Positions 2,817 to 17,248 of a DNA stretch of 26,798 nucleotides are shown one piece after another. The notes below the pieces were generated by a model. That model was not told the origin of the DNA. It did not search any database and saw only the letters and a program-made list of their open reading frames with translations. Source of the DNA: a virus. The stretch covers positions 1 through 26,798 of the IMG/VR virus record IMGVR_UViG_3300025423_000074, one strand, 5' to 3'. Position 1 is the first letter of the stretch. Every line of letters begins with the position of its first letter. The position numbers and the translations under genes were made by a program.

Positions 2817-3052
2817 TGGCTGGTGGAATTTACGGCTCAACTCAAACAAACCCATACCCGCAGTCGGAGTTTTTGGATAGCTCAACCAAACGCCCGACTC
2901 GTGCTTGGCAACAGTTCTTTCTTAACCTGTTGAACTTCTCATCGGCTACCACAGCAACGACAGGCTCTGGTAGCCTTCCTGCTGCGCCCGTAGGTTTTAT
3001 AAACATTACGGTAAATGGTAAGCCTTTCAAAGTTCCGTACTACAATCAATAA
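2816..3052 (+). CDS. Small conserved virion-associated protein
   Basis: This 78-aa protein starts at an ATG overlapping the previous stop by one base. The N-terminal half contains RPTRAWQQFFLNLLNF (residues 26-41), a probable amphipathic helix. The C-terminal end LPAAPVGFINITVNGKPFKV then PYYNQ resembles a beta-hairpin tail that I recall from short proteins in structural clusters of aquatic phages. It has no signal peptide and no catalytic motif. Placement after the gp10-like gene suggests a tail or neck accessory, but the function is unknown. Confidence 0.7.
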   Translation: MAGGIYGSTQTNPYPQSEFLDSSTKRPTRAWQQFFLNLLNFSSATTATTGSGSLPAAPVGFINITVNGKPFKVPYYNQ

Positions 3053-14873: not shown

Positions 14874-15035
14874 ATGACAAAAGAAGATGCTATCAAACGT
14901 GCAGGCTCACCTAGTGAGCTTGCTAGGCTGCTTGGATGCTCCAGGCAAGCTGTAAACAACTGGGTCAAGCTACCGCAGGGTAGGCTATGGCAGTTAAGGG
15001 TATTACGACCAGAATGGTTTGAGGTGATTGAATGA
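14874..15035 (+). CDS. cro: P22 Cro-like transcriptional regulator
   Basis: The 53-aa protein MTKEDAIKRAGSPSELARLL continues GCSRQAVNNWVKLPQGRLWQ: a compact helix-turn-helix with the order and length of P22-type Cro. Helix 2 is about SELARLLG and the recognition helix about RQAVNNWV. Start ATG 14874 was preferred over an upstream in-frame start because homology-like sequence begins exactly there. It is the first rightward gene facing the leftward recombination operon, where a Cro-like repressor normally sits. No CI-type partner is encoded divergently, so whether the phage is temperate cannot be read here. Confidence 0.8.
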   Translation: MTKEDAIKRAGSPSELARLLGCSRQAVNNWVKLPQGRLWQLRVLRPEWFEVIE

Positions 15036-15139
15036 GGTGGGCATTGCTTATTGTTGCTTTTTTGTTGGCGCTCAATGGTGAAACTGCTTGGCTGCTTTTT
15101 ATGATGATCGGAATGGTCTTGCACGGAATTGATATATAA
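15032..15139 (+). CDS. 35-aa hydrophobic membrane peptide
   Basis: ATG 15032 overlaps the stop of the Cro-like gene (ATGA) and the frame ends at TAA 15137-15139. The peptide is almost entirely hydrophobic: MRWALLIVAFLLALNG, then ETAWLLFMMIGMVLHG, giving two short membrane segments. Coupling to cro and the composition support a real small membrane protein. It is followed within 16 bases by the structured RNA region. Function unknown. Confidence 0.5.
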   Translation: MRWALLIVAFLLALNGETAWLLFMMIGMVLHGIDI

Positions 15140-15150
15140 TTTTTTGAAAG

Positions 15151-15256
15151 ACGCTTGGCGGCGTTTCGTAGTGGGGTTACACATGGAATCTGCTGGTACT
15201 ACGCCAGTCCGCCAACATTCGCAAGAATGAGATTCCAGGTGTAGCCCCTTTTTTTT
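15151..15256 (+). ncRNA. C4-like antisense RNA with intrinsic terminator (candidate)
   Basis: The strand folds into a closed multi-branch structure. The basal stem pairs 15173-15191 with 15230-15248 (GGGGTTACAC and TGGAATCT against AGATTCCA and GTGTAGCCCC, with one A-G mismatch and one G-U pair) and is followed by eight T's (15249-15256). Inside are hairpin GCTGG/CCAGT (15192-15196 with 15204-15208) and hairpin CATTC-GCAA-GAATG (15216-15229) with a GNRA loop. The unpaired ACTACG (15198-15203) and CCGCCAA (15209-15215) are exact complements of CGTAGT (15167-15172) and TTGGCGG (15155-15161) just upstream. Two exposed antisense segments plus upstream targets is the plan of C4 RNA of phages P1, P7 and P22. 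A plain terminator with accidental complementarity is the alternative. Confidence 0.65.
15173..15256 (+). terminator. Intrinsic terminator formed by the structured RNA
   Basis: The 19-bp basal stem (15173-15191 with 15230-15248) ends in four G-C pairs and is followed at once by T8. This is the arrangement of a Rho-independent terminator, although the enclosed loop region (38 bases) is large and itself folded. It lies between the cro/35-aa genes and the replication genes, so it could gate their expression. Confidence 0.6.
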
Positions 15257-15265
15257 GGGTTGAAA

Positions 15266-15925
15266 ATGAAAATTAAAAATTGGTCAAAGTTTCAGCATTT
15301 CAAAGATAGGAAACCACCTTGGGTCAAGTTGTATCGTGACGTTTTAGACGACATGGAATGGTATGAGTTAGACCCACTTGCTTGCAAAGTACTTGTGATG
15401 TGCTGGTTAATTGCTAGTGAAGATGAGGGTAGGCTGCCAACATCAAAAAATCTTGCATTTCGTTTAAGAATGACAGAAAAGCAAACTATTGATTGCTTAA
15501 ACAAGTTGTCTCATTGGCTGGAACAAGATGATATCAATGTGATATCACAGCAATATCAAATTGATAGTCTAGAGACAGAGAGAGAGACAGAGAGAGAGAC
15601 AGAGACAAAGAAAGCAACTAGCGTTGCTTGCCCACCAGATGTTTCAAAACAAGTTTGGGATGATTGGCTACAACTTCGTAAAACAAAAAAAGCATCTGTG
15701 ACAAACACGGTTGTAAATGGTGCAAGAAAAGAAGCTGAAAAGTTGGGTTGGTCACTTGAGCAATTTTTGGCTGAATGGTGTACTCGTGGAAGCCAAGGGT
15801 TGAAAGCTGAATGGATTAGCAAAGACAATCCGATGAGCAAAACTGGTCAAACAAATCAAACGGTAATGTCTGGATTAACTCGAGGTTTAGTTGGAGGTGG
15901 CAATGTACGCTTACTTGGAAACTGA
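15266..15925 (+). CDS. Replication initiator-like protein (phage O-type, winged helix)
   Basis: The 219-aa protein begins with a block typical of phage replisome organisers: NWSKFQHFKDRKPPWVKLYR, then a winged helix (LACKVLVMCWLIASEDEG, LAFRLRMTEKQTIDCLNKL). A Glu/Thr/Arg linker follows, and the C-terminal domain reads VWDDWLQLRKTKKASVTNTV, then EKLGWSLEQFLAEWCTRG and LKAEWIS. In related phages this combination is annotated as replication protein O-like or DnaT-like; it should bind the origin and recruit the helicase loader. The next gene is loader-like. ATG 15266 was chosen over TTG 15260. The linker is encoded by a 12-base tandem repeat. It sits just after a terminator, so expression probably needs readthrough. 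Confidence 0.75.
   Translation: MKIKNWSKFQHFKDRKPPWVKLYRDVLDDMEWYELDPLACKVLVMCWLIASEDEGRLPTSKNLAFRLRMTEKQTIDCLNKLSHWLEQDDINVISQQYQIDSLETERETERETETKKATSVACPPDVSKQVWDDWLQLRKTKKASVTNTVVNGARKEAEKLGWSLEQFLAEWCTRGSQGLKAEWISKDNPMSKTGQTNQTVMSGLTRGLVGGGNVRLLGN
15572..15607 (+). repeat. 12-base GA-rich tandem repeat, three copies
   Basis: GAGACAGAGAGA is repeated at 15572-15583 and 15584-15595, with an imperfect third copy at 15596-15607. It is in frame and encodes E-T-E-R units in the linker between the two domains of the replication protein. It is a likely site of copy-number change by slippage that would only alter linker length. Confidence 0.9.
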
Positions 15926-16301
15926 TTTTTGTGATGCTGAAAGTGGCCTTGATTACATTTTTGGATATATGGGCGCAATTTACGGTGCATCATTTAACCG
16001 ACATTGGGAAGGCATGGATTTGGGTTTGGTCAGGCAAGTTTGGCGTGAAAACCTTGGTCGGTTTCTTACATACAAGCCAAGTCTTGATTTTGCTTTGCGA
16101 AAATTGAATTCAGACTATCCACCATCGGCGCTTAAGTTTCGTGATTTATGCAATGCTGGCCCTGAAATTCCAAGCAAACCTGTGCAATTGGTCACACATC
16201 AAAAAACAGAGCGTGAATTGGCTGAAATTGAACGTCAAAAACAGATTGCTTTAAAAAGATTAGAAGAATTAAAAAACGAAATGAAAGGCAAGGTGGTATG
16301 A
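15903..16301 (+). CDS. Replication accessory protein, possible helicase loader
   Basis: The start is ATG 15903 because GGAGG at 15893-15897 lies five bases upstream. The 132-aa product contains GAIYGASFNRHWEGMDLGLV, then RENLGRFLTYKPSLDFALRK and YPPSALKFRDLCNAG, and ends in a Glu/Lys helix. This pattern is familiar as the short gene after the O-like gene in many betaproteobacterial phages, a position that lambda P-type loaders occupy. There is no Walker motif, so it is not a DnaC-type ATPase. The stop codon overlaps the methyltransferase start. Confidence 0.65.
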   Translation: MYAYLETDFCDAESGLDYIFGYMGAIYGASFNRHWEGMDLGLVRQVWRENLGRFLTYKPSLDFALRKLNSDYPPSALKFRDLCNAGPEIPSKPVQLVTHQKTERELAEIERQKQIALKRLEELKNEMKGKVV

Positions 16302-17248
16302 ATGAGTTGGTTAATCAGTCAAGCCTTAATGAACTCGCTTTGTTTGCAGGAGCAGGTGGAGGAATACTTGGGGGAAAACTTCTTGGATGGCGAACAGTCT
16401 GCGCCGTTGAATGGGAAGCCTATCCAGCAAGCGTATTGTGCGCCCGACAAAATGACGGTCTTCTCCCGCCTTTCCCGATTTGGGATGACATACAAACTTT
16501 TAACGGAAGACCGTGGCGAGGAATTGTTGACGTTATATCTGGCGGATTTCCATGCCAAGACATTAGCGCCGCTGGAAAAGGCGCAGGAATTGACGGAGAG
16601 CGAAGCGGAATGTGGCGAGAAATGGCGCGGGTGGTTAGCGAAGTACGACCCAGATACGTTTTTGTGGAGAACAGCCCAATGCTCGTTACTCGAGGACTTG
16701 AACGAGTCATTGGAGACCTTACCGCGCTCGGGTATGACGCGAAGTGGACTGTTATGGGAGCTGCCGATGTTGGAGCAAACCATCAAAGGGACAGAATCTG
16801 GATTGTTGGAAAAATGGGCAACACCAACCACAATGGACAAATTGCCCCCAAAATCTCAACAAGCGTTGCTAAAGGAGGCAACACAAGCCAGACTTGGCCG
16901 CAGCAAACCAGCGAATTTGCGCGACCAAGTAAGCAATATGCAGAATTGGCCTACACCGACAGCACACATGGCGAAAGAAACCAATGCGCCAAGCGAACAC
17001 AATCGGAACACACCAACATTGACAGCCCAAGTGAATTGGGCAACTCCAACAGTTTGCGGAAATTACAACAGGAAGGGACTAAGCAAGACAAGTGGAGATG
17101 GTCTTGCAACTCAAGTTGGTGGCAAGTTGAACCCAACGTGGGTAGAGTGGTTGATGGGATGGCCGCTAGGATGGACAGACTTAAAGCCATTGGAAACGGT
17201 CAAGTACCCTTATGCGCCGCAACAGCATGGAGAATCTTAAGTGAATAA
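16298..17248 (+). CDS. DNA cytosine-C5 methyltransferase
   Basis: The 316-aa protein carries the ordered C5-methyltransferase motifs: motif I FAGAGGG (16-22, S-adenosylmethionine binding), motif IV GGFPCQDIS with catalytic Cys86, motif VI ENS with Glu124, motif VIII QRDRIWIVG (163-171) and motif X DRLKAIGNGQVP (293-304). The stretch between VIII and X, where target recognition resides, is short and rich in Ser/Asn/Gln/Thr, and motif IX is not clear. It should methylate C in a specific DNA site, probably to resist host restriction; no cognate nuclease is next to it. Almost the whole gene also encodes a second protein in the +1 frame (16302-17240), which constrains its sequence and may explain the odd composition of the recognition region. 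AAGGTGG (16290-16296) is the ribosome site. Confidence 0.93.
   Translation: MNELVNQSSLNELALFAGAGGGILGGKLLGWRTVCAVEWEAYPASVLCARQNDGLLPPFPIWDDIQTFNGRPWRGIVDVISGGFPCQDISAAGKGAGIDGERSGMWREMARVVSEVRPRYVFVENSPMLVTRGLERVIGDLTALGYDAKWTVMGAADVGANHQRDRIWIVGKMGNTNHNGQIAPKISTSVAKGGNTSQTWPQQTSEFARPSKQYAELAYTDSTHGERNQCAKRTQSEHTNIDSPSELGNSNSLRKLQQEGTKQDKWRWSCNSSWWQVEPNVGRVVDGMAARMDRLKAIGNGQVPLCAATAWRILSE
16302..17240 (+). CDS. Second gene nested in methyltransferase (+1 frame), WxTPT/WVEWLMGWP protein
   Basis: A 312-codon frame without stops starts four bases after the methyltransferase ATG and ends eight bases before its stop. It is not a random shadow: it has sequence I recognise from annotated phage proteins. 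These are SRFGMTY near residue 59, CGEKWRGWLAKYDPDTFLWR (104-123) and LPRSGMTRSGLLWELP (140-155). Three copies of W-[AP]-TPT (172-176, 216-220, 246-250) follow, and the end is LNPTWVEWLMGWPLGWTDLK (276-295), then PLE. The protein is soluble, Trp/Pro-rich, with no signal peptide; function unknown, perhaps linked to methylation. The one Shine-Dalgarno AAGG is four bases from the methyltransferase ATG and eight from this ATG, so both can be served. The upstream gene's TGA (16299-16301) ends immediately before this ATG. Confidence 0.78.
   Translation: MSWLISQALMNSLCLQEQVEEYLGENFLDGEQSAPLNGKPIQQAYCAPDKMTVFSRLSRFGMTYKLLTEDRGEELLTLYLADFHAKTLAPLEKAQELTESEAECGEKWRGWLAKYDPDTFLWRTAQCSLLEDLNESLETLPRSGMTRSGLLWELPMLEQTIKGTESGLLEKWATPTTMDKLPPKSQQALLKEATQARLGRSKPANLRDQVSNMQNWPTPTAHMAKETNAPSEHNRNTPTLTAQVNWATPTVCGNYNRKGLSKTSGDGLATQVGGKLNPTWVEWLMGWPLGWTDLKPLETVKYPYAPQQHGES

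Follow-up and report, generated by a model that had tools for sequence, protein, structure and literature searches.

A C4-like RNA overlapping a predicted terminator in the replication leader of phages: a probable brake on viral replication

The attenuator of pT181 controls a replication gene, and its antisense RNA can pair along its whole length with the 5' part of that attenuator. In attenuators of this type, the antisense RNA is reported to act on the leader to favour or force closure of the terminator (PMC4878617). Satellite phage P4 is reported to shut off its replication genes through premature termination by way of CI RNA (PMC4825925), a C4-type RNA in the leader of the replication operon with a complementary site upstream (seqA), another site downstream (seqC) and a separate upstream terminator/isrK-like element (RF03163/RF01394). 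In both P4 and N15 the upstream target element matches these two families and bears its own terminator. The IsrK RNA exists in a short, terminated form that acts in trans on the read-through form (PMC4825925). For the C4 RNA of phages P1 and P7, processing by RNase P has been reported (PMC5320573), the precursor being trimmed to about 77 nt, and phage P1 holds an upstream pair of target sites, a1/b1, as well as a pair at the ribosome-binding site of icd, a2/b2. The C4 RNAs of Rfam family RF01695 are ordered as basal stem P1, UUCG hairpin, hairpin with the b' loop, a' linker and P1 again, the extra hairpin lying 5' of the targeting module.

The DNA considered here (the window, 26,798 nucleotides in all) is a record of 26.8 kb from a freshwater bacterial virus, with portal and terminase genes (PHROG matches). 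Judging by its sequence, an element in its early region is probably an RNA brake on virus replication that is related to the C4 RNA of phage P1 and the CI RNA of P4 but built unlike them. The rightward early operon runs from a Cro-like regulator, with 50 relatives among viral contigs, through a possible ORF of 35 aa and the element to a replication protein that matches phrog_678 ('replication initiation O-like', E 7e-15) and phrog_26426 (replication protein, 2e-14). The element forms a three-way junction in which a base of 10 bp, one mismatch and 8 further pairs enclose the P2 hairpin, a linker and the P3 hairpin, with T8 immediately thereafter (Table 1), and none of 200 shuffled sequences is as stable (z = -6.27). 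A preliminary description had proposed a C4-like antisense module with its targets in the same transcript, placed before a replication gene, and both the architecture and the covariation in relatives bear this out. The two segments that it called unpaired, ACTACG and CCGCCAA, are indeed perfectly complementary to the upstream CGTAGT and TTGGCGG, but the first consists of the 5 nt of a hairpin loop and one closing base, and the second is a linker in the junction. Both upstream targets are present as well, with the correction that TTGGCGG itself lies in the loop of a conserved, covarying hairpin. The basal stem followed by T8, a terminator overlapping the RNA, stands as described. A conserved peptide starting from the ATG at 15183-15185 was considered and rejected because its frame is lost among relatives: L008-type elements have an extra base in the P2 loop, and L094, for example, has no such ATG.

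Table 1. Positions of the element, its target segments and the neighbouring genes in the window, and of the leaders that take its place in other contigs
Feature	Position	Strand	Basis
Cro-like HTH regulator, first in rightward early operon	14874-15035	+	PHROG_409 transcriptional regulator, E 6e-10; phrog_35 repressor
Possible 35-aa hydrophobic leader ORF, ATG overlapping the cro stop	15032-15139	+	predicted from the sequence
Target hairpin, presents segment a (loop UUGGCG)	15150-15166	+	stem covariation
Target segment a, TTGGCGG, complement of a' linker (15209-15215)	15155-15161	+	covariation
Target segment b, CGTAGT, complement of P2 loop; abuts 5' end of basal stem	15167-15172	+	covariation
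C4-like RNA fold: P1, P2 with b' loop, a' linker, P3	15173-15248	+	fold z -6.27; covariation
P1 basal stem, lower: GGGGTTACAC/GTGTAGCCCC	15173-15182/15239-15248	+	abuts T8 directly
P1 basal stem, upper 8 pairs	15184-15191/15230-15237	+	fold
P2 hairpin GCUGGU-ACUAC-GCCAGU, carries b' (ACTACG, 15198-15203)	15192-15208	+	fold and b pairing
a' linker CCGCCAA, unpaired in junction	15209-15215	+	covaries with a
P3 hairpin CAUUC-GCAA-GAAUG, 3' of targeting module	15216-15229	+	all 5 pairs double-changed, 93.7% paired
T8 tract, with P1 stem a predicted intrinsic terminator	15249-15256	+	geometry
Replication protein (O-like/DnaD-like helicase loader family), first gene past terminator	15266-15925	+	phrog_678, phrog_26426
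int-alpA-like leaders in other contigs	L048 2900-2975; L065 2905-2979; L037 2907-2979; L033 2527-2601; L055 224-296	+	RF02996

The resemblance to the C4 RNA of phages P1 and P7 is one of anatomy. They have in common a three-stem junction and a hairpin of the form GCUGG-loop-CCAGU whose loop holds one pairing segment, while a linker of 7 nt holds the other (CUGUCAA in P1, CCGCCAA here). With P1 C4 the element further has in common the G-U pair at the base of the loop hairpin, the string GCTGG-loop-CCAGTC and a linker ending in CAAC, and its targets likewise lie upstream in the same transcript, a before b and 5-7 nt apart, as the annotated a1/b1 of phage P1 do. As in C4, then, two unpaired segments are complementary to two target segments of the same transcript. 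However, the order of the parts differs from that of C4, since the element runs P1, b'-loop hairpin, a' linker, hairpin, P1, with the third hairpin 3' of the module. Its basal stem doubles as the terminator, the gene downstream is a replication gene rather than icd/ant, and no site of the a2/b2 type was found at the downstream ribosome-binding site. The stem starts with GGGG at 15173, directly after b, and cleavage by RNase P between b and G15173 is plausible by analogy with C4. RF01695, with a gathering score of 45 bits, recovers P1 (68.8 bits), P4 (74.9) and N15 (78.8), yet the scan suggested in the preliminary description gave no match in the window region (15000-15320) at E<=5, in the record as a whole at E<=10, in 8 relatives or in 34 carrier genomes; nor did RF01394 (isrK) or RF03163 (c4-a1b1) match the window region at E<=5. 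Our own covariance model R1 scores the window at 102.5 bits, the window being part of its training set, and with filters off it finds the right locus in P1 C4 without reaching significance (11.4 bits, E 0.19). The element is thus C4-like by anatomy and not a member of RF01695, and common descent with the C4 module seems likely.

Control of replication instead of an antirepressor had been presented as a new wiring. This is wrong, because P4 CI RNA is itself a member of RF01695; P22, named as another carrier of C4, was not confirmed by that model. By complementarity and position the element resembles CI RNA: it lies in the leader of replication genes, and the antisense RNA predicted from it would find a complementary site upstream. 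Unlike in P4, the RNA and the terminator are one structure here, and only the upstream site was found. An upstream target of a C4-type RNA, accompanied by a terminator, is also what c4-a1b1 (RF03163) and isrK (RF01394) provide, but the target of the element is a small hairpin (loop UUGGCG) plus a 6-nt segment. In contrast to pT181, the element RNA is the terminator structure itself, on the same strand, with two short complements.

The window alone is only suggestive, and it is the covariation in relatives that takes the pairing beyond chance. Within the window, single 6-7-mers of both pairings recur about as often as chance predicts or somewhat more often. Apart from the expected antisense copy of the element itself, 15155-15172 is the one place with the exact tandem target, and any other tandem match in the window needs 3 mismatches, which is chance level. 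A search with the replication protein returned 80 viral loci, and nearly all of the 54 loci with an element came from this search, the element mostly lying directly upstream of the gene. Patterns that constrained a/a' together with some of the P2 stem, leaving b/b' entirely free, found at least 120 contigs with TTGGCGG/CCGCCAA and 55 with TTGACRG/CYGTCAA, where the matched TTGACGG/CCGTCAA was the sole combination present (26 of 128 elements). The R1 model, free of such patterns, led to a third type, TTGGTCG/CGACCAA, in G157, with an altered P2 stem, and a pattern for this type found 47 contigs, 40 of them distinct and one a chance match. The linker pairing thus comes in three matched a/a' types, and distinct relatives with compensatory change in viral contigs number at least 167. 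Of eight pattern matches in genome contigs, six looked like chance by eye, lacking a matching fold or T-run, and the match in L326 looked like chance too. In the nearest phage record, MW202462.1 (83.7% identical), CGTAGT has become CTCAGT together with ACTACG to ACTGAG, and two stem pairs have also changed jointly.

Among 33 diverse members, 95.0% of the cells of the fold are paired, compared with 77.3% after shuffling, a control that ignores relatedness, and at most 48% after sliding, which preserves it. In this set 25 of 34 pairs have changed on both sides, and the covariation of 0.504 (0.172 when shuffled) was reached in none of 500 shuffles. By the same two controls the target pairings are 98.3% paired as against 83.6% and at most 47%, with 67 double-changed cells where shuffling gives 19.8. 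The b:b' pairing shows double changes at all 6 pairs (96.1% of cells paired), and a:a' is 100% paired in A2 with one double-changed column; that a/a' does not vary inside a type is in part a product of the search patterns, from which b/b' is free. The b' loop is hypervariable, with 37 loop sequences in 128 distinct subtype-A elements, whereas the flanking P2 stem does not vary in this subtype, where the search pattern fixed part of it. In 115 of the 128, loop and b match over 6 or more Watson-Crick pairs in a row, compared with 3.5% when loops are re-dealt. The target hairpin varies as CGC/GCG, CAC/GTG, TGC/GCA and CCC/GGG in its stem (99.2% of cells paired, 3 of 4 pairs double-changed), and its loop is invariant within each a/a' type. 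This loop, UUGGCG, resembles the ColIb-P9 Inc RNA motif and U-turn loops; a literature search for UUGGCG gave no match. A T-run of 5-9 directly follows the basal helix in all 128 elements, a run of at least 5 having been a criterion of selection. Compensatory changes in homologues, which the preliminary description had named as the check on the basal stem and the two complementary pairs, are therefore found in every part. Comparative sequence analysis and thermodynamics together establish the fold, both pairings, the terminator geometry and the position before replication genes.

How might such an element act? The reading we prefer, and hold to be reasonably probable, is that it is a trans-acting C4-like antisense RNA and at the same time an attenuator of the replication operon, its target being its own leader. 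Transcription from the cro side would yield hairpin a, segment b and the C4-like fold and would mostly stop at the T-tract. The released RNA, whether first cleaved from its attached targets where the basal stem starts on its 5' side or acting uncut, would then pair in trans with new transcripts of the same phage, the linker with a and the P2 loop with b. On a nascent RNA that is still short, a and b would tend to pair in cis with a' and b', as the folding of transcript prefixes predicts, giving a form of the leader able to delay the terminator. A trans-acting RNA bound to a and b would remove this option, so that the terminator closes and the replication gene is left untranscribed. More phage genomes, or RNA already resident, would mean less new replication, a self-limiting brake in which the loop would serve as a specificity tag whose effect could extend to an incoming phage that shares this loop. 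That the terminated RNA acts in trans is the best-supported reading because the final fold leaves the pairing segments largely open, as such action requires (unpaired probability 0.93 for a', a mean over 128 elements, 0.80 for b' and 0.69 for the a loop), and because the cognate duplex of leader and RNA is better by about 4 kcal/mol than one with the same a and a different b (-18.1 versus -14.2 kcal/mol). It is also consistent with the reported action of P4 CI RNA (PMC4825925) and with pT181 attenuator logic (PMC4878617). We infer an antisense RNA that acts in trans to favour the closed terminator and thereby throttles replication; it would be expressed and processed, and by these two analogies termination would be the step under control.

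It is possible that no RNA acts in trans and that the element is purely a co-transcriptional attenuator, in which a/b and a'/b' would form a short-lived anti-terminator whose setting depends on how fast the polymerase moves, on a protein or on translation upstream. Pairing in cis alone could also keep the complementarity, the target is always in cis and unique, and within one molecule the pairs are nested and prevail while the transcript is short. As long as the RNA extends no more than about 16 nt beyond a', 83-90% of elements are predicted to form a cis a:a' duplex, usually with P2 opened for b:b'. The share falls to 70% once 20 nt follow a' and to 12% with 24 nt, as the 3' strand of the basal stem appears and the terminator fold takes over. 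This folding considers nested pairs only, by which a pseudoknot form is not scorable. The switch in cis that the preliminary description raised as pseudoknot-like is thus compatible with prefix folding, although it is neither the sole nor the best reading. The transient duplex does not contain the terminator strand, and since the 5' strand of P1 is not sequestered in the cis a/b duplex, an anti-terminator effect needs a kinetic or steric argument. Folding at full length overwhelmingly favours the C4 form. Moreover, a cis attenuator has no need for a target presented in a hairpin loop, for a hypervariable loop on near-invariant flanks or for differing a/a' types in genomes with two elements, and the related C4 and CI RNAs act in trans. 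We therefore regard an attenuator acting in cis alone as unlikely. An ordinary intrinsic terminator with chance complementarity would account for the stem and the T-tract, but the matching of loop and target over 37 loop sequences is so far above the re-dealt controls that its probability is negligible.

Two other readings keep an RNA that acts in trans. As with IsrK, a short terminated RNA might open its own rare read-through transcript and so promote the replication gene, and here too the terminated and read-through forms would share one leader. However, the sites with which it would pair are found on the upstream side of the RNA, whereas the ribosome-binding site of the next gene directly follows the T-run, at least 85 nt away from them, and RF01394 gives no match, making such an activator quite improbable. 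Alternatively, the RNA could be a classical translational repressor of the C4 type whose real target lies elsewhere, in a missing part of the genome, in the host or in another phage, the upstream site being a side target like a1/b1. Phage P1 does have both kinds of site, and part of the phage may be missing from the window. The preliminary description had suggested looking for further copies of the target segments in the missing part, but no second tandem site exists in 979 kb from 115 records of relatives, including one complete genome of 34.7 kb (the control gave 4), and no second target was found at any ribosome-binding site, the element's own leader being the sole target found. One match in a Polynucleobacter host genome is at chance level. 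We consider a target elsewhere very improbable.

The genomic setting of the relatives points to replication. In 119 of 122 elements no more than 15 nt separate the T-run from the following start codon, and 129 of 146 elements have a protein of the replication cluster within 3 kb, as the first gene in 87; this cluster is single-linkage and takes in O-like/DnaD-like and DUF1376/primosomal families. Other first genes encode ParB-like proteins or are ORFs that look HNH- or GIY-YIG-like by eye. A tyrosine integrase was detected in only 3 of 34 large carriers, whose contigs may be incomplete, and the ParA domain AAA_31 in none of the 34, for which reason the idea of a phage-plasmid was rejected. In the order to which the Polynucleobacter host belongs, R1 matches 2 of 399 genomes. 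In Polynucleobacter sp. UK-Kesae-W10 (L213) the element is part of a prophage-like region and lies between regulators and a replication protein with a DnaC-like loader. Prophage immunity was rejected as the general role, given the scarcity of tyrosine integrases and of matches in host-order genomes, and a part in lysogenic immunity like that in P1 or P4 is not obvious from these sequences. With few integrases and no AAA_31 ParA, control of replication or competition between co-infecting phages is likelier. Most large carriers have one element. Two elements occur in 2 of the 34. In L356 (8063-7962 and 7653-7549, minus strand) and L194 (226-124 and 2562-2453, minus strand), where both elements were read, the two differ in a/a' type. 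In L356 an HNH-like ORF lies between the two, upstream of the replication gene, as if element and endonuclease had been inserted as a unit.

It is tempting to go further and propose a large, unrecognised class of phage antisense RNA in which one molecule is terminator, antisense regulator and specificity tag of its own operon. It would be found mostly in phages with no detected tyrosine integrase, and its hypervariable loop would set dozens of compatibility types, determining which phages are able to replicate side by side in a co-infection, much like plasmid incompatibility. This generalisation is tentative, and we lean somewhat against it. If the element works as proposed, control of replication by RNAs of the C4/CI type would be a common device of freshwater phages and not a rarity of P1, P4 and N15, and such RNAs would have been missed because current models expect another order of hairpins. 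Nature has provided, among the relatives, 37 or more loop sequences on a common scaffold, for most of which the target matches, and these could be used to test how antisense specificity evolves and whether compatibility groups of phage replication exist. Should the proposed action hold, the element would also be a compact case of a terminator hairpin that doubles as a regulator acting in trans.

Some other contigs have, at the same position before this replication gene, a different conserved, structured leader that resembles int-alpA RNA (RF02996), with 25.6-36.0 bits against a gathering score of 35.8, near or above threshold. Sequence and structure of int-alpA RNA differ from those of the element. 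Since the two RNAs swap at one place, int-alpA RNA may serve the same function as the C4-like RNA. In L026 and L047 yet other hairpin-rich leaders, such as GACGGTTTAGGTGT...ACACCTAAGCCGTC, precede the replication gene. They end shortly before position 3001, and no Rfam family matches them at its gathering threshold. Elsewhere in the window, an ORF of 210 aa (289-921) that adjoins the structural genes begins like a GIY-YIG protein by eye and is probably a homing endonuclease. Two long ORFs in different frames share the same DNA on the plus strand: that at 16298-17248 encodes a DNA methyltransferase (phrog_363), and that at 16302-17240, of 312 aa, could be either a spurious frame or a gene overlapping the first.
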